From positions 62,001 to 126,000 of the forward strand of contig NZ_CP119410.1 of NCBI RefSeq assembly GCF_029223885.1: a stretch of DNA of 64,000 nucleotides. Direction: 5' to 3'. Below the pieces are notes generated by a model that searched no databases, was not told the DNA's origin, and saw only the letters and a list, made by a program, of their open reading frames with translations. The translations under genes and the position numbers were made by a program. Positions 10,273 to 48,411 of the stretch are shown one piece after another; the first letter of the stretch is position 1, and each line of letters begins with the position of its first letter. The stretch comes from Pararhizobium gei. Its GTDB lineage: Bacteria > Pseudomonadota > Alphaproteobacteria > Rhizobiales > Rhizobiaceae.

Positions 10273-10651
10273 TGGCAATCTCGTTACTTTCACGGACCAT
10301 GGTATCAACCGTGAGACGACGACGGAACCGTAAAAATCGGCTGCGAACATGCCTGGTCAGCAGCCGGCTTCCATGACGGTTTCGGGAAGCCATTGGAAAC
10401 ACCCATGTTCCACCCAAGGAAGCGCCAGCAAGCACCATGCCGCCGCGCTGAGGCAACGTGATCCGCCTTCGATGTGCAAGGCGCGTCAGGCCAGATGGCG
10501 GGCATTTCGACAGGTGGCTTCTCCACATTTCAAATCATTCTTGGAGAAACAGGCAACCTTCGTAGAGGCTTAATCTACCGGTCGCATTCGGTCAGTCGCT
10601 AAGTTTCTCTCGTGTCCAAAGCGCAATCGGCGCAAGCGAGAGGAAAGCAAA
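10273..10651. other. Intergenic stretch without a recognised gene
   Basis: About 380 bp separate hyuB from the dehydrogenase. Short open frames exist on both strands, but none has a convincing ribosome site or a family motif. It must contain the end of the hydantoinase transcript and the promoter of the next gene; I see no strong hairpin with a T-run. Confidence 0.5.
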
Positions 10652-11485: not shown

Positions 11486-11540
11486 GGATGGTCACGAGGA
11501 GACCGGCGCTCCTGCCGGTCCCTCCTTAAAGTTTGAACTG

Positions 11541-12440: not shown

Positions 12441-13213
12441 TCAGACTTGCTCTCCTTCACGTAGTCGATCCACGCTCTGAAAGCAGGCGAGACCTGCCGG
12501 CGGCTTGGGTAGAACAGGCTAAAACCGGGCAGGGACCGTACCCAATCCGGCAGCACTTTTACCAAGGTGCCCGCCGCAAGGTCACCCGTCACCTGAGACT
12601 CGAACAAAAAGGCGAGCCCGAGGCCGTCCAAGGCCGCCGCGCGGATTGCTTCGCCGCTGTCCAGCACAAGCGGCCCGTCTCCTCGAAACTCAAATCGCGC
12701 ATTGTCTTTTTCAAGGGGCCATCGGAAGATTCTGCCAGAGGTCGCAAACCGGTAGTTGATGCATCGGTGGGATTGCAGGTCAGCTGGCGTTGACGGCAGG
12801 CTCTCGAAGCTCGCCAGATATCCCGGGCTCCCAACAATAGCGGCTGGCGACGTTGAAGACAAACCAACCGCTACCATGTCTTTTTCGACCAGCGAACCAA
12901 AGCGAATACCGCCGTCAAAACTTGCCGAGATGACATCAGTCAGGCCATCGTTGACGGAAACCTCCATGCTGACGTGCGGATACCTGGCGACAAACCCGGA
13001 TAGCCTCGGGCGTATGAGCATATCATAGGCGACCTGCACGGTCGTCAGCCGGATTGTCCCGGCTACGTGAGAACGCATATCCTGCAGACCCTGGAGTTCG
13101 GCCTCGATTCCGCGCAATGCCGGTTGCAGGGTCGCAAGAAGCCGTGTGCCGGCCTCCGTGGGCGACACATTCCCCGGACCTGTTGCGCTGGATGTACTCC
13201 CGCTCCAACACAA
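12410..13213 (-). pseudogene. LysR-family regulator missing its helix-turn-helix and frameshifted
   Basis: The effector-binding part is complete (GTIRLTTVQVAYDMLI through YPSRRQVSPAFRAWIDYVK), but the DNA-binding domain is absent. Homology is clear from NVSPTEAGTRLL onward; just upstream, the remains LERE and QRNRSG lie in another frame, and removing one G from the GGGG run near 13173-13176 would join them. Further upstream the gene stops at about 13213, where the end of an alpha/beta hydrolase gene on the other strand begins. The LysR 5' end, the intergenic region and most of the hydrolase gene therefore appear deleted. No functional regulator can be made. Confidence 0.8.
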
Positions 13214-13308
13214 AGGCGGTTGAGATAAAGGCTAGCCATATGGTCCAAATGTCTCAGACCAAGCGGGTAGCGGACATGATCATGGAGGCGGTGAGAGCAG
13301 TAGAATAA
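13206..13308 (+). pseudogene. Alpha/beta hydrolase, last ~33 codons only
   Basis: The frame reads KAVEIKASHMVQMSQTKRVA followed by DMIMEAVRAVE and a stop. This resembles the final strand and helix of alpha/beta hydrolases, where the His of the catalytic triad sits in an xxSHxVxxSxP context. Nothing of the nucleophile elbow remains upstream, since the DNA turns into the truncated LysR gene. It is the other half of the deletion scar. Confidence 0.65.
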
Positions 13309-13314
13309 CAGGAA

Positions 13315-13345
13315 AGAGCAGGCGGGCCGGAAAGCCGCCTGTTCT
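13315..13345. terminator. Hairpin between convergent gene ends
   Basis: AGAGCAGGCGG (13315-13325) pairs with CCGCCTGTTCT (13335-13345) with one G-T pair. It lies between the hydrolase relic (+) and the Atu4866-type gene (-) and could end transcripts from both sides. Confidence 0.6.
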
Positions 13346-13349
13346 ACCT

Positions 13350-13724
13350 TTAATGTTCGCGCCTCAACACCATGCCCGCATGGTAGAGGACATCATCGAT
13401 GAAATCACCGTCTGCCGTGAAACCCGTATCGTCGACATAATCGATGTGGTCTCCGGTAATGCGGTAGCTACCCTGGTAAGCGCTTTTCCTCTTTCCACGC
13501 GCTTCATCATATCTACCATTAGGTAGAAGCTCATGACGGATGTAACCGTCTTCCGTGACCCACATGCCGACGTAAGGATGTTCGTTCTTGATCACGGTGT
13601 TCTCCATGTGTTGATTTTCCGTCGTTGCAACCTCATTCGAAAATGCATGGTGGCTTGCGAGGATCAGGATCGAACCAAGGAGGATCGACGCAGCTATCAC
13701 TGCGCGTCGTTCATCTCGGCGCAT
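13350..13724 (-). CDS. Atu4866-family protein with N-terminal membrane anchor or signal
   Basis: This 124-residue protein starts with a charged stretch and a hydrophobic segment (IAASILLGSILILASHHAF), so it is exported or anchored. The C-terminal domain from about residue 48 has HPYVGMWVTEDGYIRHELL, then LPNGRYDEARG, SAYQGSYRI and DDTGFTADGDF. That matches the small beta-barrel Atu4866 family (named for an Agrobacterium protein), whose function is unknown. Its start overlaps the end of the upstream monooxygenase gene by 14 bp, so the two are one operon. Confidence 0.82.
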   Translation of the reverse strand: MRRDERRAVIAASILLGSILILASHHAFSNEVATTENQHMENTVIKNEHPYVGMWVTEDGYIRHELLPNGRYDEARGKRKSAYQGSYRITGDHIDYVDDTGFTADGDFIDDVLYHAGMVLRREH

Positions 13725-14025
13725 AAGCTTGCTCCGTAGTCATTGCCAGATAATGGAGATCAAGCACGCCGTGGATCATGGTGGGGACGGCATCCACGAA
13801 CTGTCTCATGTGAGGCGTTTCGAAATGTGCGTCCAGATCCTGCTTGCTGCGCCAGTTCTCGTAGACGCACCAGACGTCAGGCTCGTCGAGCGAACGATGG
13901 ACATCATAATTGATGCAGCCTGGCTCGCTACGGCTTGGCTCGGCCAGCCGATTGAGCCAATCGCCGAGCACATCGGCGCTTCCCTGCTTTGCTCGCATGA
14001 AAGCTATGTTTGTAAGTTTCGTCAT
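13711..14025 (-). CDS. Antibiotic-biosynthesis-monooxygenase (ABM) domain protein, putative quinol monooxygenase
   Basis: The 104-residue protein MTKLTNIAF... has the ferredoxin-like ABM fold: SEPGCINYDVHRS, then WCVYENWRSKQDLDAHFETPH, close to YgiN-type quinol monooxygenases. Longer starts exist, but ATG 14025 has GAGGAGAG at the right distance. It heads a two-gene operon with the Atu4866-type protein and lies 166 bp downstream of an AraC regulator on the same strand. A role in handling quinones or reactive electrophiles is inferred from the family. Confidence 0.85.
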   Translation of the reverse strand: MTKLTNIAFMRAKQGSADVLGDWLNRLAEPSRSEPGCINYDVHRSLDEPDVWCVYENWRSKQDLDAHFETPHMRQFVDAVPTMIHGVLDLHYLAMTTEQAYAPR

Positions 14026-14191
14026 GGTTCTCTCCTCATCGTTTTTGAAAGGCAGCCAAATGGCTGTCCATGAGACAAACATGCACGACCTCGGCACGAA
14101 GGCGGTAGAACGCTTCTCTGCGCGGCTTGCCCGATTCTATAGGTTCCATAAATGGAGAAGCCGCCCGAAGACGGCTCAGAAGTTCGAGAAC

Positions 14192-15091
14192 CTATTGCCA
14201 ACTCGTGGCGGGCATCGCCTTCATTTTTTCCACATCCTTCTTCGGCGAAAGGCCAAACATCCGGGCGTATTCGCGCGAAAACTGGGAGGGGCTTTCATAT
14301 CCAACCGAGAAACCAGCGGATGCGGCATCCAGCGCCTGAGCGATCATCAGTCGCCGTGCCTCCTGCAGTCGCACCTGCTTCTGATATTGAAGGGGGCTCA
14401 TCGCCGTGACCGTTTTGAAATGCTGATGGAACGACGAAACGCTCATATGGACCTGAGCGGCAACTTCCTCAATCTTCAAGGCCCGATCGTACTGGGTCTT
14501 GATGATCGCGATGGCCTTGTTGATCTGACTAAGCTTGCTCTCGGCCATTGCGATCTGACGGAGACGGTCGCCCTGCTCGCCAAGGAGCAGCCTGTAAAGG
14601 ATCTCGCGCTCTGCAAGCGGCGCCAGAACGGCCCGGTCGCTTTCACGTCCGCTTTCCAGCAGCTCTGCAAGCCTGACGACCGCGTCAAGAAGTTGCGCTG
14701 GCACGTCACTGACCGCGATCCCTCGCTGGGGCTCCTCGTTTCGAAGCCCACCGGGCACGGCCGCGGTGATGACGTCTGCAATGGCGGCGGGTTGAAGATC
14801 GAGTCGCAAGCAGAGGTACGGGATTTCAGGCGAAGCCTCAAGAATTTGACCGGCGATAGGAAGATCGACACTGACGATGAGAAATTTCATTGGCTCATAT
14901 AGATAAGCCTGATCGGCCAGCGTGGTTTGCTTGCGGCCTTGCGCGACGAAACAAACCGCCGGCTTGTGCAAGATTGGAACCGCCTCTGTCGGCGTGACTG
15001 AACGTAAGATATGGACCCGCGGGACATCTGTCTCAGTGACACCGTCGTTTCGGCAGTTGTCGGCCAGAATGCGCGCGAGACGTTCGATCAT
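14192..15091 (-). CDS. AraC-family transcriptional regulator
   Basis: This 299-residue protein has an AraC_N domain (PAVCFVAQGRKQTTL near residue 45; EIPYLCLRLDL near 90) and an intact C-terminal double helix-turn-helix: LKIEEVAAQVHMSVSSFHQHF, then SPLQYQKQVRLQEARRLM and AGFSVGYESPSQFSREYARM. It is a paralogue of the degenerate regulator at 11541-12440. Regulators of this type often sit beside small dehydrogenase or monooxygenase genes; here the likely target is the downstream monooxygenase/Atu4866 operon in the 166-bp gap. Confidence 0.9.
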   Translation of the reverse strand: MIERLARILADNCRNDGVTETDVPRVHILRSVTPTEAVPILHKPAVCFVAQGRKQTTLADQAYLYEPMKFLIVSVDLPIAGQILEASPEIPYLCLRLDLQPAAIADVITAAVPGGLRNEEPQRGIAVSDVPAQLLDAVVRLAELLESGRESDRAVLAPLAEREILYRLLLGEQGDRLRQIAMAESKLSQINKAIAIIKTQYDRALKIEEVAAQVHMSVSSFHQHFKTVTAMSPLQYQKQVRLQEARRLMIAQALDAASAGFSVGYESPSQFSREYARMFGLSPKKDVEKMKAMPATSWQ

Positions 15092-19145: not shown

Positions 19146-20306
19146 TACCAATGCCCGATGAAATCGACTCACGGGATTCCGTTTTCGAGCAAATCAGGAT
19201 TCAACATGGCGGAAGGAGATTTCGCCATGGGAACGGCCCTCAATATCCGTCAGGATTACACTGCTTGTGACCTGCGTCAGCTTGCCAGAAAGAGCCTGGA
19301 CGCTAACTGGTCCCGCCGATTGCTTGCTTTATCAGTGATTTACGAAGGCGGTTCTCGGAGCCAGGCCGCCTCTATTGGCGGGGTCGGTTTGCAGATCATC
19401 CGCGATTGGGTCGAGCGCTTCAACCGAGACGGTCCAGACGGCCTGAAGAGTGGAAAGGCCAAGGGCCGTGAGCCGTTGCTGAACGACAAGCAGCGCAAGG
19501 CGCTCGTCGAGGCGGTAGAAAAAGGCCCCGTTCCCTATCTTGATGGCGTGGTGCGCTGGAGGCTCGTCGATCTTGTGCAATGGCTTTGGCAGGAACACCG
19601 TATCTCGGTGAGCCGTCAGACGCTTGGGCGCGAACTGCATGCGATGGGCTATCGCAAACTCACGGCCCGGCCAACGCATCATGCGCAAGATAGCCAGGCG
19701 ATTGAGGAATTTAAAAAAACTTCCCCGCCGCTGTGGCAGAAATTGCTGCCGGAGCAGCCCGAGGAAAGCGAGTAGAGATTTGGTTCCAGGACGAGGCCCG
19801 GATCGGACAGAAGAACAAGATAACGCGCCGCTGGGCCAGGCGCGGAACGCGGCCTTCAGCACCGCATGATCAACGCACTAGGTCGGCCTACATCTTCGGG
19901 GCGATTTGTCCGAAGCTCGGCAAAGCGGCGGCTCTTGTTATGCCGTGGTGCGACACCCACGCGATGACACAGCATCTTGCCGAAATCTCCCGCCATGTCG
20001 ACGAGAACGCGCACGCCATCCTCATCATGGATCAGGCGGGCTGGCACATGTCCAACAACCTCGTTGTGCCCGGAAACATCAGCATTCTGCCGCTGCCGCC
20101 GAAATCCCCGGAACTGAACCCGGTTGAAAACCTCTGGCAGTTCATGCGCCAGAACTGGCTCTCAAACCGGGTCTTCAAATCATACGACGACATCGTCGAC
20201 CATTGCTGCGACGCTTGGCGGAGACTCGAAAACCAGCCTTGGCGCATCATGTCCGTCGGTCACCGCAAATGGGCGCATGAATTCTAATCATTGAGCGTTG
20301 GTATTA
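19146..20306 (+). mobile_element. IS630-family insertion sequence, copy 2 (about 1159 bp)
   Basis: The ends, TACCAATGCCCGATGA on the left and the reverse complement of TTGAGCGTTGGTAT on the right, form an imperfect inverted repeat. A TA follows the right end (20305-20306) but the left flank reads GA, so the target duplication is not intact or the boundary has changed. The element is related to copy 1 (same organisation, same slippery site) but clearly diverged in the terminal repeats and protein, so the two are different IS types or old relatives rather than recent copies. Confidence 0.85.
19227..20287 (+). CDS. IS630-family transposase, two frames joined by -1 frameshifting (copy 2)
   Basis: The first frame starts at ATG 19227 with GGAAGGAG upstream and runs to 19775. 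It carries the helix-turn-helix region (RRLLALSVIYEGGSRSQAAS, IIRDWVERFNRDGPDG). The second frame (19733-20287) holds the catalytic triad: FQDEARIG, LIMDQAGWH and SPELNPVENLW. The slippery codons TTT AAA AAA ACT recur (19710-19720), and the same -1 shift joins the frames. All catalytic residues remain, so it may be active. The two transposases are closest in the catalytic half. Confidence 0.88.
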
Positions 20307-24517: not shown

Positions 24518-26494
24518 TCACTGCTGCCCGATCTTGCCGATTGACAGGCGGGTGCCGGCGCCGGCCAGCAGCGCAAGCACGATGTCCTGCACGCTGCCCC
24601 AGGTATTATTCGTCATCCACAGCACCAGCACACCCGCGCTCGCGATACCGGCAAGCGCGATAACGTTGGTGATCCAGTCCCAGGCGCGGAGCGAATGAAG
24701 CAGAGTTGTCAGCGGCGCGCCGGCAGCTGGCTGAAGCGCGCCATTCGGCCATTTGACTATCAGACCGCTTTCCGCTGCGAGGATTATCGGCACGTTGATC
24801 GCCCCATCGGCACTTTCCAGGCCCAAAAGCACGACAAACCTCTCCGATAGTTTCAAGACGTCGTCCAATGTTCCTTCAACGGGCGGATTTGCGGACTTCA
24901 GCGCCCTAACGTCCCGCTGAAGCTTTGCCAGCTCGGCCTTGAGGTCATCCGTCGGTGGTGCCTGCAAAGCTCTGGTAATTTCCCTGTCGAGCTTCTCGAG
25001 CACGGCCGAGGCAAAGGCGGCAGGCTTTTTCTCCAGAACCGCGGTGGCACCGTTCAACGCCGTCGCGCGGGTCGCGGTGTGTTTGCCGTCACCGCCGGGC
25101 TCGATTGGAACGAATGCGCCATTGCGAAGATCGAGCGCGCTATTCCACTCGGCAGGCGCGTCGGTGCCCAAATAACTCGCTGCCGGCGCCAGCTTGGCGG
25201 CTATCAGGTCGTAACGACGCGCTGCCTGGTACAGCAAATCGAAATCGGCAAGTTCGGCGCAGAGTGTCTCCAAGGCGGCGGCAACGGCATCGCGGTTCCA
25301 TTCGATGGCATCCAGCGTGATGCACAGCCGTTGTGCCAAAAGGCCGAAGGTTTCGGTCGCGTTATTCCTGGGTTCCGTGGGCTGCGTGACTGCAATCAGC
25401 ATTCCGTCTGCCCGCGTGAGCAGTTCGATCCAGGCTTTGTAGTCCCCGACTTTTGCCGTGGTGTCCACGCCAGCAAGAATCTCGGTATCGAGCGCAGTCA
25501 GCTCGGAGACAAGCCGCGTAGCCCGCCTCCTGACCGCCGCCTGTTTCGTCGTGTTCGCTAGCGTTTGCGCAGCGTCACGCAGGCGCGCTGTTTCAATGCG
25601 ATGGACGGCAATTGGCCGTGCGGTGCGCCAGTCGGTCACCGCGGCACCAAGCAGCACGCCCAGGGCGATGACAATGCCTGCAAGCCATGCTGACGCCCGG
25701 ACATCGACACTGAGCGTCCGTACTGACTGCCCGCCTCCGTTGCCCGGCACGATCACATTGATCGAGTAGCTGCCAGGGGCAACGCCTGACGGCAGTTGCA
25801 CAGCGAAGACACAAGATTGGTTAGCGGGCAGGGGGCGGGGGCAACGGTCGTCGCTCACCATTGGCTCTGTCTCAGTGGCCGACTGCACTTTGGCATCGGT
25901 GGGGCCGAAAAGCAGCTGCCCGACAATCGGCTGACCGATCTCGACAGGCTCGTTCGATGCGTTGTGCGCGGTCAACTGGATCGGATAGGGCTTCGGGGTG
26001 AGGAAGTTGAGAAAGCTCAGATCGGCATGCAGCGGCTTGGGCTCCAACAGCAAGCCGTCCGTGACAGCCGTCATAGTGCGGGTAATTCGCACCGGATAGC
26101 GCGAGGTCCCCAACTTTCCCGCAGCCTCAATGAAAATCTCGTAGACGCCGGGTTTGGCAAATTCGCCGCTGACTTCGAAGGTTGCGGTCTCGCCTGACAT
26201 GAGTTTGAACGTGCCGTCCGACGGGGTCGCAAGCGGGTACTTGATCCACTTGGCGTCGACCTTTTCATGTGTGGTTTCGTTTTGAAACTCCTTACCCACC
26301 GTTACAAGGACCTCCGCCTCCTCACCCTTGAGCGTAATCGATGCGCGGCCGTTGACGATCGTGGTCTTCGTCGCCGTGGCCGTATCGCTGGTTGCATTGT
26401 TGACCTTCTCCACGCCTGCCGCCGGCCCGGAAATGGCCGCGATCAGTATCGTAAAAAAAAGCAATCCGATTCTGGAACTAAACTTCAAGTTCAT
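24518..26494 (-). CDS. Membrane protein with exported beta-rich region and cytoplasmic helical region
   Basis: The 658-residue protein starts with a signal sequence (LLFFTILIAAISGPAAG). Residues 30-265 look like two Ig-like beta-sandwich domains (EFAKPGVYEIFIEAAG, then a CARDB-like part with AHNASNEPVEIG and LPSGVAPGSYSINVIV) with a Cys pair near 218/228. A transmembrane helix (270-286) leads to an alanine-rich helical region of about 310 residues, and two more hydrophobic segments close the protein (about 608-627 and 633-648). I do not recognise the family. GGGAGAG precedes ATG 26494. It is divergent from the YbaY-astacin-caspase operon across an AT-rich 470-bp gap and could be its sensor or a substrate (inference). 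Confidence 0.7.
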   Translation of the reverse strand: MNLKFSSRIGLLFFTILIAAISGPAAGVEKVNNATSDTATATKTTIVNGRASITLKGEEAEVLVTVGKEFQNETTHEKVDAKWIKYPLATPSDGTFKLMSGETATFEVSGEFAKPGVYEIFIEAAGKLGTSRYPVRITRTMTAVTDGLLLEPKPLHADLSFLNFLTPKPYPIQLTAHNASNEPVEIGQPIVGQLLFGPTDAKVQSATETEPMVSDDRCPRPLPANQSCVFAVQLPSGVAPGSYSINVIVPGNGGGQSVRTLSVDVRASAWLAGIVIALGVLLGAAVTDWRTARPIAVHRIETARLRDAAQTLANTTKQAAVRRRATRLVSELTALDTEILAGVDTTAKVGDYKAWIELLTRADGMLIAVTQPTEPRNNATETFGLLAQRLCITLDAIEWNRDAVAAALETLCAELADFDLLYQAARRYDLIAAKLAPAASYLGTDAPAEWNSALDLRNGAFVPIEPGGDGKHTATRATALNGATAVLEKKPAAFASAVLEKLDREITRALQAPPTDDLKAELAKLQRDVRALKSANPPVEGTLDDVLKLSERFVVLLGLESADGAINVPIILAAESGLIVKWPNGALQPAAGAPLTTLLHSLRAWDWITNVIALAGIASAGVLVLWMTNNTWGSVQDIVLALLAGAGTRLSIGKIGQQ

Positions 26495-26519
26495 CGTCCG
26501 ATCTCTCCCAAAAGCCACG

Positions 26520-26963: not shown

Positions 26964-27344
26964 ATGACGATTGTTGATATCCTGGGCATGGTTGAGCTTG
27001 CACAAGGACCGGTCGCGGAGGGGCTTGACGTTCGGGTTCGCTTTGAGGACACAACGATGATGGACGGCCCGTCGATCGTGATCGCCGAGACCATGGTGCG
27101 GCTGGCGCCAGGCGCAGCGGCGTCCGCTCGGTTCAGGCTGGCTGTGCCCGCCGGCAGACTCGACACACGGCGGCATTATACGCTCTCGGCGCGCGGCAGG
27201 CGTGCAGGTTCGTCCGATTTTCGGGACTTCGGCACCGTCCAATCCTATTCATGGCGTGCTGGCGTCGACACTTTGTACCATCTTACGATCGAGACGTTCA
27301 CGGGCGACCAGCAGAATCCGAGCGAACTTCGGCCTTCTGAATAA
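26964..27344 (+). CDS. YbaY/YscW-like beta-barrel domain protein
   Basis: This 126-residue protein shows the pattern of the YbaY/YscW lipoprotein family: GPVAEGLDVRVRFEDTTMMD, GPSIVIAETMVRLAPG, ARFRLAVPAGRLDTRRHYTL. In that family the domain is a small beta-sandwich in lipoproteins, including chaperones of the secretin in type III secretion. Here there is neither a lipobox nor a signal peptide from the preferred ATG 26964; the longer frame to 26886 adds no signal either. It is the first gene before the astacin gene (92 bp), so it may be an inhibitor, chaperone or sensor in the cascade (inference). Confidence 0.55.
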   Translation: MTIVDILGMVELAQGPVAEGLDVRVRFEDTTMMDGPSIVIAETMVRLAPGAAASARFRLAVPAGRLDTRRHYTLSARGRRAGSSDFRDFGTVQSYSWRAGVDTLYHLTIETFTGDQQNPSELRPSE

Positions 27345-27436
27345 GATCACGCGGGTAACCGGGCAGCGCAGTCCATCGGCTGCTGATTTTTGCGACCAGT
27401 ATCATGCACTAGCAACGAAATTCAGAGGAGGACGGC

Positions 27437-28225
27437 ATGGCTGACGGCGAACAGACTGGCGGGAACGAAATCAAGACCACTTTCATGTTGGTGGGAGACA
27501 AGCTGCGCCCGGTACAGTATACGGTGGTGGACGGCCTGGCAGTGGTCGAGGGGTGCATCGTCATCGGCACGCCGGAAGAGGCGGAAGCCAATCTCAAAGC
27601 GGTGCAGGATCAGCCGGGCCTGTTGCGCGCCGATGTACAAGCTCAGGGGGTGGCCATAAAGGGCAAGGCCTTTCGCTGGGACAAAGGCAAGCTGATATAC
27701 GAGATCGATCCTGCGCTACCCCATCCCGAACGTGTCGAGCAGGCGATGGATCACTGGCGCCAAAACACCGCGATCACGTTCGAGAAGCGAGATCCTGCCA
27801 ACGCCGAGCATAAGAACTATGTACGCTTCGTCCCCGGCACCGGCTGCCGCTCGGCGGTAGGCAGGCGGGGCGGCATGCAGCAACTGGTGCTCGGCCCGGA
27901 ATGCACTAAGGGCAACGTCATTCACGAGATCGGCCACGCGCTGGGGCTCTTTCACGAGCAGAGCCGTGGCGACCGCGATGCCCATATCCGAATCCGTTTC
28001 GACCGCATCCAGGAAGGGATGGAGCATAATTTCACCCAGCATATAGACGACGGCATTGATGTCGAGGCCTATGACTTTGGCTCGATCATGCATTATCCGC
28101 TCAATGCGTTCTCGGTCGACGGCAAGCCGACTATCGAGTTGGTTCATGACTTTCCCGGCGTGGTCGGCCAGCGCGAGAAGTTGAGCGAAGGCGATCGTGC
28201 CACCATCAAGAAGCTCTACAAATGA
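27437..28225 (+). CDS. Astacin-like (M12A) zinc metalloprotease
   Basis: The 262-residue protein carries the full astacin signature: HEIGHALGLFHEQSR (His163, Glu164, His167, His173 bind zinc and activate water) and the Met-turn YDFGSIMHYP (Met218, Tyr220). Cys137 and Cys156 match the family's disulfide region. The first 75 residues look like a propeptide (AVVEGCIVIGTPEEAEANL), which would keep the enzyme inactive until cut; Cys40 within it could act as a switch (inference). There is no signal peptide, though most astacins are secreted. AGAGGAGG precedes the ATG. The stop overlaps the caspase start (ATGA at 28222-28225), so both are translated together. Confidence 0.9.
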   Translation: MADGEQTGGNEIKTTFMLVGDKLRPVQYTVVDGLAVVEGCIVIGTPEEAEANLKAVQDQPGLLRADVQAQGVAIKGKAFRWDKGKLIYEIDPALPHPERVEQAMDHWRQNTAITFEKRDPANAEHKNYVRFVPGTGCRSAVGRRGGMQQLVLGPECTKGNVIHEIGHALGLFHEQSRGDRDAHIRIRFDRIQEGMEHNFTQHIDDGIDVEAYDFGSIMHYPLNAFSVDGKPTIELVHDFPGVVGQREKLSEGDRATIKKLYK

Positions 28226-29460
28226 CGCTGGTTTTCGACCGTACCGCCGATCTCGCGGGGAAACCGCAGACCCATGTCTTTCTCGTCGGCGTCAGCGAAT
28301 ACACGCATCTTCCCGGCATCGACGAGCCGCCGGACGCGGCAAGCTTCGGGCTACAGCGTCTCGCGTCCCCGGCGCTGAGTGCCTGGGAGGTCTGCCGCTG
28401 GCTCGCCGCGCATGCCGATACGCTGTATCGGCCACTGGGCTCGATCCGGTTACTGATGTCGCCGGCGCCCGACGAAGTGGCGAAACTCATGCCGATCACC
28501 GCGCCAAGGGGCGTGCAGATGACCAATACTCAAGGCGAGCGTATCACCGCGCCCGACGGAACCAATATCAGCGCCGCCAACGTCGAGCAGGCCGACTGGG
28601 CTCATTTCGTGACGGAGGCCTGGGCATGGCGGCGCGCTGCCGCGCCTCATCGCGACAGCGTCACCATGTTTTATTATTCCGGCCATGGGCTCGAACGTTC
28701 CGGCGATACGCTCATCACCCTTGCTGATTTCACCGATCCGGCGGGCGGTGGCAAGCTGCAGCGCTGCTGCGAGGTGAAGTCTAATTTCGTGCTCGGCATG
28801 GCGCCCACCAACGATGAATTCAGCAATATCGCGCGGAGCCAGTTCTATTTCATCGACGCATGCCGTGAACCGTTGCTCGAACCGGTTGCCATCACTGCGA
28901 ATACCGCTTCGGTGTGGGAGACGATGGCGGGCAAGGACGACCGGACCACGCCGATCTTCCTCGCCACCTATGCGGGCCTGCGCGCCTTGGCCATCCGGGG
29001 CCAGGCGACCGATTTCTGTGCCGGCCTGCTCAAGGCGCTGGACACGGGTTCGGACAATTGCGACGTGCAGGACGCGCAGGGACGCTGGCCGGTCGATAGC
29101 GTCTCGCTGAGCGCCGCCCTCGAGAACTACTTCGGATGGATGGGCACGGGACAATTCGCGCCGACAACGGGAACCGTGTTCGGACGCCCGAGACTATGCT
29201 GGCTGGCCGATCCACCGGTCGTAGACTTCCGCGTCCTGGTGCGCCCGGATGCGGCAATCCCGGCTACTGAAATTCTCCTGACCAATCAGAACACTGGCTT
29301 CGAGAAGCGCATCGCCGCATCAACCGCCGACCACCCGTATCCAGTCAATGTGCCAGCCGGCGTCTACAGCCTCCTTCCGACTGCGAGTGGCGCCAAACGC
29401 CCCCCCGTTTTTCAGCTCGTCAACCAGCTCATGTTGGAATGGCCGGTCACGATAGGTTGA
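28222..29460 (+). CDS. Caspase-like (C14) protease with C-terminal beta-sandwich
   Basis: This 412-residue cytoplasmic protein has a peptidase C14 p20-like core: HVFLVGVSEYTHLPG at the first strand, the catalytic His155 in MFYYSGHG, and the catalytic Cys214 in FYFIDACREP. The specificity loops follow (ATYAGLRALAIRG). Residues from about 315 form a separate beta-rich domain (VDFRVLVRPDAAIPAT, VPAGVYSLLPTASG) whose pattern recalls the N-terminus of the next protein. Bacterial caspase-like enzymes act in abortive infection, gasdermin activation and CRISPR-linked proteolysis. Its partners here are an astacin upstream (overlapping) and a trypsin-PLD fusion 5 bp downstream, which argues for a cascade. 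Confidence 0.88.
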   Translation: MTLVFDRTADLAGKPQTHVFLVGVSEYTHLPGIDEPPDAASFGLQRLASPALSAWEVCRWLAAHADTLYRPLGSIRLLMSPAPDEVAKLMPITAPRGVQMTNTQGERITAPDGTNISAANVEQADWAHFVTEAWAWRRAAAPHRDSVTMFYYSGHGLERSGDTLITLADFTDPAGGGKLQRCCEVKSNFVLGMAPTNDEFSNIARSQFYFIDACREPLLEPVAITANTASVWETMAGKDDRTTPIFLATYAGLRALAIRGQATDFCAGLLKALDTGSDNCDVQDAQGRWPVDSVSLSAALENYFGWMGTGQFAPTTGTVFGRPRLCWLADPPVVDFRVLVRPDAAIPATEILLTNQNTGFEKRIAASTADHPYPVNVPAGVYSLLPTASGAKRPPVFQLVNQLMLEWPVTIG

Positions 29461-29465
29461 GCGCC

Positions 29466-32400
29466 ATGGCAAAGAAAAAACTCTTCCTCACGGTGCCGAA
29501 GGCCTTCGAGAACGCGCGTGCCCAGGTGTCGATCCTTGCACACGACCTGACAGTCGTGCGCTCAACGACGCTAAGAGAAGCCGCCGGCGGTATAGAGCTG
29601 GAGCCTGGTGTCTATGCCGCGCGTGCCGTGCTGGCTGATGGAAATGTTCTCCAGGCCGCTTTCAAACTGTACAAGACCACGAAGCAGGAAGTGGTCGAAC
29701 TTGTCGCCATGCCAACCTCCCAGTCCGGCTTGCACGCGGTTTCGTCACGTGTGTTCGCGACAAGCAGCGCAGCCCGCAATAGTCTCGCCCTGGAGGGCGT
29801 CGCCGCCTCTTATGCGCCGGGATCGAGCGCACTTGTTGAGGCCGATATGACTTCCGAGTCTGTTGCGTCGGTCGAGGCGCCAAGCTTGTCGCTGGTGAAC
29901 CTCGGACTGGAAGGCGTGGTTTCAGAGAGCGCGGAACCGGTGACGCTGGATCCGGCAGGCAAGGTCCAGATGTCGGCGCAGGCTGGCATCCGATTCGTAA
30001 AGGCGCATTATCAGACGGGCGACCTGCTCGTGGCCGTGCCGACCAGCCATGGCGAGTCGGCAACTCTGAGCTTCACGCCGGGCGATCCGGACGTTCATGT
30101 CGACCTGGAAGATGACGATGCCGACCTGCTGCTCGCCTATCTAGGCACGCGCCAACTCGAGCAGCTCTCGCAGCTCATCGGCGGCTACTGGGAGAGGTCC
30201 CGCGATCTGTTGGAGGGTAAGAGGATACGCCCGGTGGCCGCCGCGGTTGGCGCCTATGTGTCGGTTCTTGTCGGCTCTCCGGACCTCAGCGAGGCGGACT
30301 GCCTGTCCGAAGACAACTGGCTAAACAGATGGACCAACAACCTTTTCAAGGACTTTCCCTGGCTGGTGGATGGATTGTGCATCCGAGCAGAGATTCTGGC
30401 TCGGCGCGGGGAGCATGAAGAGGCGATCAGGCTGTTCTGCATGTTGTCGGAACGTGGTTTGCCGATGTTCACCTTTGGCTTCCGTTTCGCGATCGATCGC
30501 CTCGGTGGCTATCGCAACGCTGCCGAGAAAGGACTGCTTCGACAAGACCATCTGGCATCGATCGAAGCCGTGTTGACGCCGTTGAAGCGGCTCGCGGCCA
30601 CGGTCGATTTTCGCAGGCCGGTGTTGAGTTTCTGGCACGCGGCTCCCACTCATCAGCGGGAAGAGGAGCGGCAACTGCCTGTCCCGTCCATCCGCACGAC
30701 AGCAACCACAGCGGTGATATCACAAATCACGAGGAGCCAACCAATGGACGAGGCAGTCGAGCGGCAGCGCCGGAAGAATGCGCGAACCACACGTAACGAG
30801 GAATTCGTGCAGCGCCTGTTTGCCAGGCATCCAGATGCCAGCGCCCACTATAAAGCCGAACTGGAATCCGCGTCTTTGGAGAGCGATGTAGCGCTTGAGT
30901 CGGTCGCCTCCGCCGCGCCCGCGACGACCGGGCGCGAGCTCATGCTGGAGACGATCGTACGCAAGGAGCGCCCGGTACTGTTCGTCAGGGACGACTGGCT
31001 GGACATCGAGAACGTCACGACATTTGGTCTTGAAGCGGAAGAACTGGTACGCGACCTCAACGCGCGGCGCAATATACTGAAGCCGCTGATGCCGCTGGTC
31101 GGGCGCATTGACGTCACTTCCTTTCCGGGTGCCGAATTCCTGGGTACCGCCTGGTTTGTCGATGTCGATATCGTCGTCACTAACCGCCACGTTGCCGAGT
31201 TGATTGCCCGCTGGGACGGACGTCGTTACGCCTTCAGCCGCGGGATCGGAGGAACGATTACCGCCTCGGTCAACACGCTGCACGAATTCGATGACCTTGC
31301 GGGCGACGCCGCGCGCAGTTTCGCTGTCGAGGAGGTGCTCTACATCGAGCGCGATCCGGCGGTCGATATTGCCTTCCTCAAAGTGCGCCGGCGCACCGAT
31401 GGCGCGCGTCTCGACCGAATTACGATCGCATCGTCCGACGCCGAACCCGACACATCCGTGGTCACCGTCGGCTATCCAGCGCGCGCATCCAAGCGCGTCA
31501 TCCCGGACCAGGACCTGATGGAACAACTCTATCGCGGACGCTTCGACATCAAACGCGCGGCGCCGGGCCTCGCAATGCCGCGCGACGGTGCGTCCTGGCG
31601 TCACGATTGCACCACGCTCGGCGGCGCCTCGGGTTCACCGGTGTTCGATCCGCGCACCGGCACCGCCGTCGGTTTGCATTTTGCAGGACTCTATGAAGAG
31701 GCAAACTTCGCGGTGCCGGCAACGATTTTGCGCGATTATGTCACCAAGCGGCGCTGGACAAAGCCGCCTGAGATCGAAACGACGCAACCGGCCAAGCCTG
31801 CGGCATCGCTGCAGACGCTGACTCCCGTCTCTCCGGTTCAGGCCACCACTCCCGGTGGGCTAACGGTAGGCTCAACGGGCGGCTCTGTAAGCGTGACAAT
31901 CCCGCTCACCATCAACTTCAGCCTCGGCCAGCCCATGGCGAACGTTACCGTGGCTGCCATGCCGGCGGTCAGTGTCGGGCCGACTGATGACGGCGGCGCA
32001 ACGATGGACGCGGAATCCGCTGTCAAGGCATTTTGGGCCGCGCGACCGGAGGGTGTGATCGCTGCGCGCGTGGGATTCCGCAGTGTCGGCGGGGCGATTG
32101 GCGAGCAGCCCTATATCGCGGCGGCAGCGCCTGCCGATCGGTTGGCCGACGTTGCGGATCGCGGACCCGTGCGCTTTGCCGGCTATGAGGTGCGCTATGA
32201 GCCGGCCAATGCCACCGAGATCATCGATGGCATGGCACTCACGGAGTCAGTCGACGCGATTTCCTATGACGACAGTGCGCGCACAGGAGCGGCCTTCTCG
32301 TTCGACCAGGTTGATGAGGAGATGACGGTCAGGGCACATGTCGGGCCGGAATATTCCTGGGATGAGCTCAAGGCTTTCCTGTCGGATGGCCGTGGTGGCG

Positions 32401-33590
32401 ATCTCGTTTCGGCAATCTACGAATTCCACGCCCCGCAGATTAAGGATGTCCTCGAGGCCAGGCTGGTTGCCGGAGCCTCGCTGACGCTGGTTTGTGACAA
32501 TGTCACCTATTCGCCGGTTAAGAACCCGAAGGAGGAGTTCGAGCGGATCGAAGTATTTAATGACTGGAACAATCGGTTCCGGCGGCGGTTCCAGCGGATG
32601 GTTCCGCCGGAGGGACGCAATGGCCTGATCTCGGACGCGTACCACATCAAGGTCACGGTGAAGCAGGACGACAGCTTCTGGCTCTCATCGGGAAACTGGA
32701 AGGCGGGCTCGAGCCAACCGGTGATCAGTGACGCGCAGCGTGATAACGCCGCCAGAGTCGATCTGCCTGGAAACCGCGAGTGGCACGTGGTGATCGACAA
32801 TGCCACTCTGGCCGACCGCTTCCGCAGCCATATCCTGCAGGATTTCCAGCGCTCGAAGGATCTGGGCGGATCCGAGCAGCCGCGCCAGCGCGAGGCATCG
32901 GACGCGTTTATCGAAGTAGCGCTCGACCAGCAGATCCTGGAAGAGCGACCGCCAGCGAGCCGCCTGCTCAAGCCCAAGACATTCTCCGGCCGCGTACGGG
33001 CGAAGCCGCTGCTTACCCCCGACCAGGAAGGTGCGGTCTATTCCGAGGCCGTGCTGGAACTGATCGGCTCGGCGACCGACAACCTGCTTTTCCAAATCCC
33101 CTACATCTCCATGCCGTCCAATCCTGATGCGGATCGTGGCTTCATCGACACGCTGCTCCAGGCTCTGACGGACAAGCTGTTGACGTTGCGCGATGCCAGG
33201 CTGATCCTGCGCTCGGGCGGATCTAAATTCTCCGCCCCCACCCACGCCGCATGGTTCTTCAAGTCGAAAGGCGTCGATATCGACAATCGGGTAAGGCAGA
33301 TCGAGAACCATCATACCAAGGGCATGATCGTCGATGGCAAACGTGTGCTGATCGGCAGTCATAACTGGAGCAAGCCCGGCGTGACTCTCAACCGCGACGC
33401 CTCGCTGCTGTTCGACAATACGCCTATCGCCAGCTACTTCGCCGAGGCTTTCGAGATCGACTGGCAGCGTGGCAGTCGCATCCGTCCGCGCGAATTCCGG
33501 CGGGAATCGATCCTGGAGGCAGCAGCAGGTGCCACGCCCCCGGGCCTCATGCGGGTATCGCTTTCCGCGTTGCTCAAAGATGAGGACTAG
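29466..33590 (+). CDS. Multidomain protein: beta-sandwich, helical repeats, trypsin-like protease, phospholipase D-like domain
   Basis: The product is 1374 residues. Residues 1-85 are a beta-rich domain (LEPGVYAARAVLADG) like the end of the caspase. A helical, TPR-like region follows (about 215-380). A trypsin-like domain has His575 (VVTNRHVAEL), Asp634 (AVDIAFLKV) and Ser722 in GGASGSPVF. The C-terminal 300 residues hold two phospholipase D half-sites: a divergent one (YHIKVTVKQDD, His1060/Lys1062) and a perfect HxKx4D (HHTKGMIVDG, His1283/Lys1285/Asp1290) followed by GSHNWS. PLD folds include nucleases, so the tail may be an effector released by proteolysis (inference). There is no signal peptide. 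ATG 29466 follows the caspase stop by 5 bp. Confidence 0.88.
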   Translation: MAKKKLFLTVPKAFENARAQVSILAHDLTVVRSTTLREAAGGIELEPGVYAARAVLADGNVLQAAFKLYKTTKQEVVELVAMPTSQSGLHAVSSRVFATSSAARNSLALEGVAASYAPGSSALVEADMTSESVASVEAPSLSLVNLGLEGVVSESAEPVTLDPAGKVQMSAQAGIRFVKAHYQTGDLLVAVPTSHGESATLSFTPGDPDVHVDLEDDDADLLLAYLGTRQLEQLSQLIGGYWERSRDLLEGKRIRPVAAAVGAYVSVLVGSPDLSEADCLSEDNWLNRWTNNLFKDFPWLVDGLCIRAEILARRGEHEEAIRLFCMLSERGLPMFTFGFRFAIDRLGGYRNAAEKGLLRQDHLASIEAVLTPLKRLAATVDFRRPVLSFWHAAPTHQREEERQLPVPSIRTTATTAVISQITRSQPMDEAVERQRRKNARTTRNEEFVQRLFARHPDASAHYKAELESASLESDVALESVASAAPATTGRELMLETIVRKERPVLFVRDDWLDIENVTTFGLEAEELVRDLNARRNILKPLMPLVGRIDVTSFPGAEFLGTAWFVDVDIVVTNRHVAELIARWDGRRYAFSRGIGGTITASVNTLHEFDDLAGDAARSFAVEEVLYIERDPAVDIAFLKVRRRTDGARLDRITIASSDAEPDTSVVTVGYPARASKRVIPDQDLMEQLYRGRFDIKRAAPGLAMPRDGASWRHDCTTLGGASGSPVFDPRTGTAVGLHFAGLYEEANFAVPATILRDYVTKRRWTKPPEIETTQPAKPAASLQTLTPVSPVQATTPGGLTVGSTGGSVSVTIPLTINFSLGQPMANVTVAAMPAVSVGPTDDGGATMDAESAVKAFWAARPEGVIAARVGFRSVGGAIGEQPYIAAAAPADRLADVADRGPVRFAGYEVRYEPANATEIIDGMALTESVDAISYDDSARTGAAFSFDQVDEEMTVRAHVGPEYSWDELKAFLSDGRGGDLVSAIYEFHAPQIKDVLEARLVAGASLTLVCDNVTYSPVKNPKEEFERIEVFNDWNNRFRRRFQRMVPPEGRNGLISDAYHIKVTVKQDDSFWLSSGNWKAGSSQPVISDAQRDNAARVDLPGNREWHVVIDNATLADRFRSHILQDFQRSKDLGGSEQPRQREASDAFIEVALDQQILEERPPASRLLKPKTFSGRVRAKPLLTPDQEGAVYSEAVLELIGSATDNLLFQIPYISMPSNPDADRGFIDTLLQALTDKLLTLRDARLILRSGGSKFSAPTHAAWFFKSKGVDIDNRVRQIENHHTKGMIVDGKRVLIGSHNWSKPGVTLNRDASLLFDNTPIASYFAEAFEIDWQRGSRIRPREFRRESILEAAAGATPPGLMRVSLSALLKDED

Positions 33591-34030: not shown

Positions 34031-36424
34031 ATGCCGCCGGTAATCAAGGATAACGACTTCGAAGGAGCAGATCACGGGCTTGTATTGCCGGTGCGCCGAC
34101 TTGTCGATGGCCCGTTCGAGCTTCGCATCGACAATCTCGATCGTGTGGATCCGCCCAGCCCGTACAGGCCCGGTGGCGTGCCGCGCGCCAGCACCTTTAC
34201 CAAGAATGTTTTGACCCTGCCGGTGGAGGACGGCATGCCAGAACTCAAGGTGGCGTTGAAAATTGCCGGCTTTGATCCCGCGACGACGCCGGTCATATGG
34301 CGATTGCAGAGTCTGCACGTGCTCGGCCGCTTCCATCGGAAGGGTGGCACAAAGACCGACCCGCAATATTGGGCCAAGGTCGTGCCGCTCGGCGACGAAT
34401 GGCGCGGCGAGAGCCGCACTGCCGACTTTACTCTGTTCGCTAAGGATACCCCGCCCGCGGATCACGTCGGCGGCGGCCACGCCATTGTCACCGTGGCCGT
34501 GAAACCGCCCGGCGCGACCGGTTGGCTGCAGGATTTCGTCCATTTGCGTATCATTGGCGCCAACCCGGACAGCAAATCAGTCAGGAAACAGATTCGTGCC
34601 GCATTGCCTGGCCGCGACCCCAATCTCTGGTCGATGCTGGACGCAATCTTCGCTTGGGAGGCGGGCTACAAGCAGTTCCGGCCCAAGTCCTATTCCGGCG
34701 ATACTTATATGGGTGTCTCCTTCAAGTGGCCGTCTGACCCGGCTTGGTTTCCGGTGTCGTCCTTCGATTTCGGAGTCGGGCTTTCCCAGTTCACGCATCC
34801 CGATCAACTCACGGCTTCGATCGCTTGGGATTGGCGTGACAATATGAGCTCCGGCATCAACATCTTTCTCGATGCATTGCGCGGCTCATACAAAAAAGAC
34901 ATCACCTGGATCGACTGGGCGAAGGCTGGTTGGCAGAGATACAACGGCAGTGCCGATTACGCAAAAAAGCGAGCCGAATCCGACGACGGTAAGCTCGTCT
35001 CAACGGCCCTCACACCAGGCGATCTGGCGGTTAAGGCGCTGACCAAGATGCTAGCGCTCGTCAAGGCACCGACCTGGCCAGCGTGGCCTCCCGAGGCCGA
35101 GCTTGTGGGCACCAGTGAGGATTTCGAACGCGTCGCGACCGTGTCGCGGTCCGGGGTCAACACGATCGCCGAAGCGGTGACGGCCAAGGTGACCGACCGT
35201 GCCGCGCTGCTATGGATGTGGCCGCAGTTGGAGAGCCAAATGCTTGACTTCGACGACCATCTCGCCACGCCCCTATTTCCTGGTCTCAACGCCGAGCAAA
35301 TCAGCGCAATGCACGCGGAGCTCAGCTCCGACGAGCTGCAGGCGGCGTTGGATCACGCACTTCTGGTCGCGCTACGGCGTTTCGACGGCCCTGTTCTTGA
35401 GACCAACGCTGCCGTGATGGAAACGACGCCGTCCTCGGCCAGCACCCTTGCCGAATGGAACAAGCTTTCGACTTTTGTGCGCAACAATATCAATGGCGGC
35501 TTTGCCGGCTACCAACAGCTGCGGACCAACCTACTCGGCCAGTTCGGCGGCCTGAACGACCCGGACAAGGCCATCAAGCGGATCAACGCGTATTACGGAC
35601 AGTTGACCGGTGCCGCTTTTCCCAAATCCGCCAGTGCTGCCCCGGTCCACCCCGAACTCAAGGCCCGGCTCGCCAAGGGCAAGGCGATCGCGAACGCCAA
35701 GGGGGCCGCAGCGGCGGTCGCCTCCATCGGCAAGATCGGCGGATTCAATATACGACCAAACGCCAACAACCCGAACAAACTCAGCCTGCACTCGTTTGGC
35801 TGGGCGGTCGATATCGACTGGGACATCAACCCCAATGTCAAGAAAACGGCCTTGCCGCTTGCCATCATCAAGGCGGTTACCGGCGTCGACCTTTATGGTG
35901 CGGAGAGCATTCTGCTACGCGTGCCCGCACCCTATGACACGATGCTGCCTGCCGCGAGCGTACTATCGAAGGCTAATGCCGATTTCAAGGTCGCATTCGC
36001 GACCCAGGCCGGACTTAAGAGTGCGATGAAAGAAACGGTGAAGCGGCTCTGCGCCATCACATTGTCTGCCGCTGACCTGACGGCGGCCGAGGGTTTCGCG
36101 ACCGCTCAACCGGCCAAGCTGGACCGCATTCGCGATCTGCTCGCCGGACTGGGTGTTGCGGCGGCAACGGCGAAAGCAACAGCCAAGCTCCTCGGCGAGG
36201 CAGCCGACCTGTTCCGCCGAGCCGCAAAAGTCACCAAACCTGTCGCCAATGGCCCCAGTGACGCAACGCTCGCGCATTTCGGTTTCTTCAACCATGCACC
36301 CGAACTGGTAGCTGCACTCGCCAGCAGCGACGGCGCCGGTCTGCGTTGGCTTGGCGCAGCGAACGGCACCAAGGACTACATGCATTTCGAACTGTTCCCG
36401 GCCGACACGCCCGACCTATTTTGA
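34031..36424 (+). CDS. Large peptidoglycan-hydrolase-like protein (transglycosylase-like region plus C-terminal M15-like peptidase)
   Basis: The protein is 797 residues. Residues 1-180 are beta-rich. Near 200-300 a lytic-transglycosylase-like stretch appears: LDAIFAWEAGYKQF (Glu210) and FDFGVGLSQFTHPDQL, the pattern in which a Glu is followed by a G-GLxQ block. The C-terminal 220 residues hold an M15/VanY-like zinc site: LSLHSFGWAVDIDWD (His587, Asp594) and KDYMHFELF (His785). It would therefore cleave both glycan and peptide. No signal peptide is present. GGAGGAG lies just before ATG 34031, excluding the longer frame. It follows the protease operon on the same strand after a 440-bp gap with a relic. 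Confidence 0.7.
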   Translation: MPPVIKDNDFEGADHGLVLPVRRLVDGPFELRIDNLDRVDPPSPYRPGGVPRASTFTKNVLTLPVEDGMPELKVALKIAGFDPATTPVIWRLQSLHVLGRFHRKGGTKTDPQYWAKVVPLGDEWRGESRTADFTLFAKDTPPADHVGGGHAIVTVAVKPPGATGWLQDFVHLRIIGANPDSKSVRKQIRAALPGRDPNLWSMLDAIFAWEAGYKQFRPKSYSGDTYMGVSFKWPSDPAWFPVSSFDFGVGLSQFTHPDQLTASIAWDWRDNMSSGINIFLDALRGSYKKDITWIDWAKAGWQRYNGSADYAKKRAESDDGKLVSTALTPGDLAVKALTKMLALVKAPTWPAWPPEAELVGTSEDFERVATVSRSGVNTIAEAVTAKVTDRAALLWMWPQLESQMLDFDDHLATPLFPGLNAEQISAMHAELSSDELQAALDHALLVALRRFDGPVLETNAAVMETTPSSASTLAEWNKLSTFVRNNINGGFAGYQQLRTNLLGQFGGLNDPDKAIKRINAYYGQLTGAAFPKSASAAPVHPELKARLAKGKAIANAKGAAAAVASIGKIGGFNIRPNANNPNKLSLHSFGWAVDIDWDINPNVKKTALPLAIIKAVTGVDLYGAESILLRVPAPYDTMLPAASVLSKANADFKVAFATQAGLKSAMKETVKRLCAITLSAADLTAAEGFATAQPAKLDRIRDLLAGLGVAAATAKATAKLLGEAADLFRRAAKVTKPVANGPSDATLAHFGFFNHAPELVAALASSDGAGLRWLGAANGTKDYMHFELFPADTPDLF

Positions 36425-41744: not shown

Positions 41745-42983
41745 ATGCCAATTACAGGACAGGGTTGGGAACTTCACGTTGAGCGCCTGGGAATTCAGAA
41801 AAAGGGCGGGCTGACGCGGACCTATGGAACATATCAGGTTTACATCAACGGCAACCCCGCGGCCGAGCTTTCAGGCCATATATGCGAAACAATCGGGCCT
41901 GGCGACAACAGCAAGAAGAACAACGGGAAGCGCGTCGAAGCGGGGGCATATCCGCTTTCGACACATTTTGGGGCCAAGTATGAGACGATTGGCTATTCGG
42001 AAGATCTGGAGACGCCGGGCGAGATCCATATGCCGAGCGTTCTGCTACTGGACACCAACAAGCGAACCGGCATCCTTGTCCATCCCGGCCATCCACCGCA
42101 CCTCTATCTCTCGAGCGTCGGCTGCTTCAATCCGACCAAGCCACTGGGGTCGGCCGACGAAATGGATTTCTGGGAGAGCCGGGATCGCGTGATCGCGATC
42201 ATCGAGAGCCTGAAGGCGTTTGCGCCCAATGCATTCCGCCGCCGCCGCCAGACGCCCATATCGAATGCGACGGTCGTTGTGGATGGCGAGCCGATGGGGA
42301 CGGTCAGAACCAATCCGCCGGCCGACGTCCCGGTCATGGCCCGCGCGGCAGACGGCGGTCCGCCGCCTCCGGCGTCCAGCGTGCAGATCGGCCTGCTCAC
42401 ACAAGCGCTCGATGCGCTGAAGCGCTCCGGCCGCCCTGTGGCAAAACTGCATGTGGATTTTCTGGATTCGACGAGCTTGGCGACAATCAACGTGGACTTC
42501 CATCCGTCCACAGCAACCGCCGCACTGAGCACCGCTTCTCCAAGGGAGCTCAACCTGCACGACAAGGTACCGAACCAGAGCGAGATCAGTGTCTGCGGAG
42601 CGATCGTCAAGAAGATCAAGCGCGGTGATCCGGAGTTTGCTGCGTTAGTCAGCAACGCCAACGCCAATATCGAATTCAAGGATGAGGAAGGCACTGGGGC
42701 GGATCGCATGATGTCGCCCCGGCTCAGGGACGGCCTCGACCGCCTGGCCACATTGGTTGCCGCGGAATGGCCGGGCGTGAAGTTGCGCGTGACAGAGGCA
42801 TGGGACGAGAACAACGAGCATCACGGCAGGTCGCTCCATTACGAGGGGCGCGGTGCCGATCTGACCACCTCACCCAAGGATGGCGACAAGCTCGGCCGCC
42901 TCGCCCAGCTGGCAGTCGATGCTGGGTTGGACTGGGTCTTTTTCGAAGACACCTCTCATGTCCATGTCTCGGTGAAGCGTTAA
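41745..42983 (+). CDS. DUF5675 domain fused to a Hedgehog signalling-domain-like zinc peptidase domain
   Basis: The protein is 412 residues. Residues about 8-150 match DUF5675 ([40 protein letters not shown]). Residues 270-412 align without large gaps to the animal Hedgehog N-terminal domain: [61 protein letters not shown]. All Hedgehog zinc-site residues are present (His365, Asp372, His407; Glu401 and His405 at the catalytic positions), as are most calcium ligands (Glu314, Glu315, Asp320, Glu351, Asp354; the sixth is Asn356). The fold is shared with M15 D-Ala-D-Ala peptidases, so it may cut peptidoglycan. No Hog autoprocessing domain and no signal peptide are present. Confidence 0.88.
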
Positions 42984-47788: not shown

Positions 47789-48012
47789 TGTTTTCCTCCC
47801 GGCTTCGTTATTTTAGCAGAATTGCACCTCTGCCTAGTGCACGCAACTTTAAAGTTTAATGAGGCATGGATTTCATCTTGACTGGCGAACCTGACGCCCG
47901 AAGCATGAATCTATTCCAGCCAGCAAGGCGACTGAACGATGCTTCAACGTTCAAACAAGCAGTGTCACGAAACGGCATCGTCAACTTAACGGATTGTGGA
48001 ATTCGATGTGCG

Positions 48013-48411
48013 ATGACGGGCATGCCACATCGTGACCCGCTCTATCGCCGCCATCGCTTTCCCGCTGAAATCATTGCTCACGCCGTGTGGCTTTATTTCC
48101 GTTTTCCTCTCAGCCTGCGGGTGGTCGAGGACTTGCTGGCTGCCCGTGGGATCATTGTCTCCCATCAGACAATCCGGCAGTGGGCGGAGAAATTCGGCCG
48201 CACCTTCGCCAACGAGATCCGCCGTCGATCATCCGGTCGGCTCGGAGATAAATGGCACCTCGATGAGGCCGCCATTTCGATTCGAGGCAAGAAGCACTGG
48301 CTGTGGCGCGCCGTTGACCAGGACGGTTTCGTCTTGGAGGCGCTGGTGCAAAGCCGCCGCAATGCCAAGGCGGCCAAACGCCTGATGCGCAAGGTCTTGA
48401 AGAGCCAATGA
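48013..48411 (+). pseudogene. Truncated IS6-family transposase
   Basis: The 132-residue frame (MTGMPHRDPLYRRHRFPAEI, LRVVEDLLAARGIIVSHQTI, DKWHLDEAAISIRGKKHWLW) is the N-terminal half of an IS6/IS26-like DDE transposase with the first catalytic Asp in WHLDE. It stops at MRKVLKSQ, where intact proteins continue for another 100 residues with the second Asp and the Glu. No terminal inverted repeats were found. It marks the right edge of the wall-hydrolase/protease locus. Confidence 0.82.

Follow-up and report, generated by a model that had tools for sequence, protein, structure and literature searches.

A caspase, astacin and trypsin-PLD operon with a probable Canu-like core on a genomic island of Pararhizobium gei

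Canu (CanABC) of K. aerogenes is an anti-phage system whose caspase-activated design has been demonstrated experimentally. According to the main text of PMC12799240, CanA has a MALT1-like fold and an Ig-like C-terminal domain, LmuA, Avs1a and RTasMBL form the gated pro-nuclease group of the system, and the effector shown by experiment is of one kind, an MBL nuclease. A further relevant group are the NucA-trypsin conflict systems, described in the text of PMC7159879 as System 3; they are trypsin-nuclease fusions, the majority from alphaproteobacteria, for which a proteolytic cascade has been proposed, and a subset has the effector-associated domain EAD1. The main text of PMC12799240 does not contain the words astacin, patatin and phospholipase, and 'astacin' and 'phospholipase' occur in PMC7159879 in the reference list only. 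Among the titles and abstracts listed for open-licence PMC articles, none described an astacin-caspase-PLD set. The first-pass annotation of this DNA knew of no such described system, but a precedent exists, since the core of the locus is Canu-like.

The window analysed here is a stretch of 64,000 nucleotides of P. gei. It harbours, head to tail on the forward strand, the genes for a YscW/YbaY-like protein, an astacin, a caspase and a trypsin-PLD protein, all catalytic motifs being intact. The astacin and caspase genes overlap by 4 bp (28222-28225), and 5 bp (29461-29465) separate the caspase gene from the fusion gene. This agrees with the first-pass annotation, which had reported three head-to-tail proteases with this overlap and gap and complete active sites: on recheck the coordinates matched, and the zinc motif and Met-turn of the astacin and the catalytic motifs of the caspase and the trypsin were all retained. 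The YscW/YbaY-like protein (126 aa, 26964..27344, + strand) scored 26.2 bits against Pfam YscW (cut-off 22.6), and inspection by eye revealed neither a lipobox nor a signal peptide. Two accessory genes flank the operon. One encodes an M15 D-Ala-D-Ala peptidase-like protein (34031..36424, + strand; Pfam Peptidase_M15_4, 5.1e-7) whose ATG follows GGAGGAG and whose homologue in locus L005 is directly 3' of the fusion gene; the other encodes a 666-aa protein (24518..26518, - strand) with a homologue at the equivalent place in L005 (E 3e-199).

The caspase-like, CanA-like protease (28222..29460, + strand) has His155 (28684-28686) and Cys214 (28861-28863). Its scores against Pfam Peptidase_C14 (20.4 and 20.8 bits) are below the gathering cut-off of 21.4, while both the fold and the H/C dyad are those of a caspase. 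The best fold match was MALT1; the identity with this paracaspase is 18% over the aligned part, and the window protein, by contrast, starts with the caspase domain. Residues 333-410 comprise about seven strands, and the structural alignments reach only residue ~330. Three more caspase-domain genes are present in the same genome (L001, L002 and L003 on contig C1), two of them within 3 kb. A phage or virus origin was considered and rejected: with the caspase of locus L018 as query, nothing in 50,697 phage records was matched at E 1e-5, and none of the 27 pattern matches in IMG/VR was confirmed.

The third protease is part of a 1374-aa protein (29466..33590, + strand) with a CanB-like domain, a V8-like trypsin and a PLD with two HKD sites. 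The first-pass annotation called it a trypsin-PLD fusion; the trypsin and the PLD were borne out, but an N-terminal CanB-like domain of about 426 residues had been overlooked. The profile that detects this domain (residues 1-426; 29466..30743, + strand) also detects the separate gene that follows the caspase in relatives. No family of the Pfam copy used matched the domain; a newer family, PF27295, is listed in the table of trypsin-PLD matches. The sequence of the domain suggests a beta-rich N-terminus followed by helices. Among the best 120 of 666 trypsin-PLD matches, 22 proteins exceeded 1200 aa and the other 98 did not. The CanB profile matched seven of these 22 at 6e-52 or lower (P0038-P0043 and P0047; P0038 is the window protein) and one more at 4e-5, but none of the 98 shorter proteins at 1e-3. 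A plain trypsin-PLD reading was consequently rejected. Met427 (30744..30746, + strand), with GAGGAG upstream, is the point at which a family of stand-alone trypsin-PLD proteins of about 949 aa starts, indicating that the fusion probably joined two genes; this internal start may still be used.

The Trypsin_2 domain (residues 560-737; 31143..31676, + strand; Pfam 1.7e-15) has a V8/Esp/Spl-like fold among its Foldseek matches. It is followed by a linker (residues 770-845; 31773..32000, + strand) that is probably disordered (residues 344-419 of the trypsin-PLD model, pLDDT under 50, the whole model having a mean pLDDT of 79 and a pTM of 0.57). The PLD module (Pfam PLDc_2; 32010..33587, + strand) has its HKD half-sites at residues 1060 and 1283. 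Its structural matches tie between the nuclease-type PLD3/PLD4 and lipid enzymes (F13, PS synthase), and judging from the model it could be a lipase or a nuclease. The exchange for EndoNS in locus L006 favours a nuclease, and the patatin and the hydrolases at other loci leave room for a lipid substrate.

In the match listings, at least six caspase/fusion pairs, with that of the window among them, agree in the length of their longest contig. Next, we compared 37 caspase loci: 23 that were found by scanning genome contigs, nine further genome loci (L104-L112), four loci on plasmids (L059, L060, L063 and L064) and the window. L062, whose caspase and PLD fusion are below the CanA and CanB thresholds, and L061, L065 and L066, which gave no caspase match, are outside this set. 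The partner profiles were built partly from the loci compared (for YscW, the window and L006 were used, and the threshold was looser), and these loci share ancestry; consequently, Fisher tests on the partner counts overstate independence. CanB adjoins CanA in 35 of the 37 loci in the profile comparison, the exceptions being L020 (contig end) and L112 (a 494-aa gene under the threshold). Within 6 kb of CanA, 11 loci have an astacin, 10 an alpha/beta-hydrolase, 8 a patatin and 8 none of these, and no locus has two of them over threshold; the weak matches of L007 (astacin, 2.5e-7) and L025 (hydrolase, 5.7e-6) were counted as absent. The astacin and the hydrolase are always directly 5' of CanA on the same strand (L111, with an overlong open frame, was judged by its caspase domain). 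The patatin has this position in five of eight loci (L019, L020, L021, L106 and L107) and is on the other strand in three (divergent in L063, on the far side in L104 and L109). YscW-like homologues at E 1e-4 were found within 6 kb of the caspase in 8/11 astacin loci and in 0/26 others. An MBL-fold gene is present in 12 of the 37 loci (7/8 with patatin, 5/8 with none of the three, 0/11 with astacin and 0/10 with hydrolase), and all six MBL genes examined match LmuA/Avs1a/RTasMBL. The MBL profile gave no match in the window. The first-pass annotation had proposed a neighbourhood search, with a missing conserved neighbourhood as the refuting outcome; this outcome is excluded, as the operon is a conserved unit, and a chance neighbourhood was rejected on the loci compared.

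The CanB-trypsin-PLD fusion is present in the window, L005 and L059; L006 encodes CanB alone and then a trypsin-EndoNS protein; L007 has a CanB-trypsin fusion and its astacin match, under the Pfam cut-off, is on the opposite strand; L008 has a CHAT protein. A separate PLD of about 530 aa is 5' of the astacin in L009, L010, L011 and L015, and no PLD was recognised by profile comparison in L012, L013 and L014. In L059, which is carried by a Bradyrhizobium plasmid and has Ku and IS genes nearby, a 1788-aa CanB-trypsin-trypsin-PLD protein (9457-14823) follows the astacin and the caspase. In L062 (5848-13782, Mesorhizobium plasmid), an alpha/beta-hydrolase, a caspase, a 1449-aa trypsin-PLD protein and a trypsin lie in a row, their divergence being too great for detection by the CanA and CanB profiles. 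Many relatives are rhizobial, and Actinomycetota and Acidobacteriota are also represented. The CanB profile matched 3 of 398 genomes in a sample of the phylum, and the CanA profile matched 53 of 397 genomes of the order at 1e-12 and only 6 at 1e-30 (own genome included in each case).

In the CanA tree (37 rows), ten of the 11 astacin loci form one clade (88/81; 98/97 when L007 and L008 are added), and L059 is separate from it. This clade covers several alphaproteobacterial families and Ideonella. The astacin label requires two changes on the tree compared to a mean of 9.8 after shuffling, a value reached in 0/500 shuffles and to which near-copies contribute. The hydrolase label is also clustered (0/500 shuffles as low), the 'none' label weakly so (13/500), and the patatin label is unclustered (7 changes, 251/500 shuffles as low).

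The astacin (M12A; 27437..28225, + strand; Pfam Astacin 2.1e-49) is preceded by the strong Shine-Dalgarno-like AGAGGAGG and has the M12A zinc motif HExxHxxGxxHE at residue 163 and the Met-turn SIMHY at 216. The first-pass annotation described it as propeptide-bearing, and a zymogen-like pro-segment is indeed present. Cys40 of an EGC motif in this pro-segment (27554..27556, + strand) is at the place of the aspartate switch. The cysteine is found in 10/10 members of the astacin clade (EGC, but QGC in L014), and both astacins of L059 lack the EGC motif. An Asp (GD) is at the matching place in 5/5 control astacins, taken from five of 17 plasmid records (L113 and L114 near-identical, L116 cut at the N-terminus). 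Four of the five controls have an N-terminal hydrophobic stretch, the remaining one being the cut L116; in the clade astacins, with start codons as predicted, hydropathy over the first 70 residues peaks at the EGC motif itself (in L012 the peak is low), and the window astacin has no visible signal peptide. From these sequences, Cys in place of Asp is likely the zymogen (cysteine) switch of this clade of caspase-linked astacins. Myroilysin is similar in being an astacin with Cys as zinc blocker, a role inferred for the window astacin; however, myroilysin is without the FXGDI motif according to the account in a review, whereas the window-type Cys lies inside a retained FEGC/VEGC motif and belongs to a caspase-linked gene product with no visible signal peptide.

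The locus resembles Canu, as described in the main text of PMC12799240, in its MALT1-like caspase with a second gene directly behind it, and relatives of the window pair carry LmuA/Avs1a-type MBL genes; the CanB-like domain of the window is homologous to the gene 3' of the caspase in the 12 MBL-bearing loci as well. It differs from Canu in that the window has no MBL gene (CanC), CanB is fused to trypsin-PLD, and an astacin and a YscW-like protein stand in front. Compared to the NucA-trypsin systems, as set out in PMC7159879, the trypsin is likewise fused to an effector and L006 even has trypsin-EndoNS, but the window fusion has PLD instead of NucA/EndoNS and a caspase-CanB core is present. The conserved pair, the LmuA/Avs1a-type MBL genes of its relatives and the MALT1 fold together indicate a Canu-like CanA-CanB core in which the nuclease has been replaced; the grounds for proposing kinship with K. 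aerogenes CanABC are the fold, the order of the genes and the MBL partner found in relatives. The conflict-system link that the first-pass annotation drew for the caspase was supported, as the pair shares homology with the core genes of loci encoding Canu-type gated pro-nucleases.

We therefore favour, with somewhat better than even confidence, a Canu-like caspase-controlled self-destruct module in which the CanC pro-nuclease has been replaced and which is probably directed against phages or mobile elements. We infer both the defence role and the order of the cascade. CanB would keep CanA silent and sense the trigger; activated CanA would cut its partners, taking the cysteine-switch pro-segment off the astacin and/or cleaving the linker of the 1374-aa protein; the released PLD would then destroy nucleic acid or membrane lipid, which would lead to cell death or growth arrest. 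Either the trypsin or the astacin would act second. A search for a cleavage site gave none, and we know of no phenotype of the operon. More tentatively, and with the balance against it, the operon might be a three-tier bacterial cascade (caspase, cysteine-switch metalloprotease, serine protease) ending in a PLD executioner; a single CanA-CanB switch would have this as one output among several that can replace each other (MBL nuclease, patatin, alpha/beta-hydrolase, astacin with PLD or EndoNS). Such a cascade, if true, would be the prokaryotic equivalent of apoptosis, coagulation and similar zymogen cascades. The 37 loci suggest a general CanA-CanB switch that is combined with at least three hydrolases, which exclude one another, and with several other effectors; these partners include an astacin that has Cys and not Asp as its latency residue in the caspase-linked lineage. 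If this is right, the choice of a caspase between DNA cleavage, lipid hydrolysis and proteolysis becomes testable, as does the origin of multi-step zymogen cascades.

The operon is contained in a 32-kb plasmid island (18155..50228) whose flanks are contiguous in A. tumefaciens pAt15955, which is without the island. Transposase genes are at 19158-20287 and 47866-48411. No exact common word of 8 or more bases was found within about 55 bp of each edge, and since the matches to the two flanks have 18 bp of pAt15955 in common (5063-5080 of L073), an imperfect repeat is possible. The island also has Glyco_hydro_46, YkuD_2 L,D-transpeptidase, weak GDSL, SH3 and HNH genes, several of them for cell-wall-type enzymes; relatives of the GDSL gene occur in L061 (5e-17) and, as a weak match, 3' of the L018 MBL gene (5e-6). 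At 41745-42983 of the window, a 412-aa bacterial protein strongly matches the Hedgehog amino-terminal signalling domain (HH_signal, 3.4e-50). On pRetIE4803d of R. etli IE4803 (L061), amidase, trypsin, trypsin-PLD and patatin genes lie in a row with no caspase over threshold. For nine window proteins, PADLOC gave only weak domain matches. At 1e-20, its only matches among 49 neighbours (proteins no shorter than about 200 aa, taken from eight astacin-type loci: L005, L006, L009, L010 and L012-L015) were mad3 (3) and methyltransferase (two models, one protein each), so that known defence genes were sparse near these loci. Among ten proteins picked by annotation from L063 and L064, SspB, SspC and SspD are next to L063, and IetA, IetS, a ThsB-type TIR gene and HEC-05 next to L064.

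The enzymes of this island bear on a reading in which proteases, PLD and cell-wall enzymes (M15, GH46, YkuD, Hedgehog-type) form a programmed-lysis or demolition kit that dismantles the cell to release plasmid, toxin or nutrients and does not stop phage. The Glyco_hydro_46, YkuD_2 and HH_signal genes besides M15, and the R. etli array, are in its favour, but we regard it as unlikely: of the other 36 caspase loci, just one (L005) has M15 too, GH46, YkuD and HH_signal have no homologue at 1e-4 in the loci compared for these genes, and the core is conserved without them. The absence of a visible defence island around the astacin-type loci would fit a domestic role, such as stress-induced cell death or regulatory proteolysis not aimed at invaders; the sporadic, island- and plasmid-borne spread and the kinship of the core to Canu-type loci make this improbable.

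Delivery into a eukaryotic (plant or protist) host via a type IV or III secretion system is, in our judgement, just as improbable. The astacin scores 270.6 bits against LegP (NF045530), a family of injected proteases, but this is under the curated cut-off of 300; the small protein matches the YscW family and many relatives are rhizobial, yet at other loci the core has bacterial defence nucleases as partners, and the relatives in Actinomycetota and Acidobacteriota make a common plant host unlikely. That the genes are mere neighbours without joint function is the least credible reading and is largely refuted by conservation: stand-alone trypsin-PLD proteins (the 98 of 120 listed that are 1200 aa or shorter) and S8-M12 gene pairs do exist, but the astacin-CanA-CanB order is found in 11/37 loci, ten of them in one clade, the genes overlap, and CanB is fused to the effector.

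Two further plasmid arrangements were observed. In L065 and L066, on two rhizobial/agrobacterial plasmids, an S8 peptidase, a small gene and a trypsin-EndoNS gene are found, apparently of the NucA-trypsin type. In L113 and L114, on Sinorhizobium plasmids, an S8 peptidase is directly followed by an exported-looking Asp-switch astacin.
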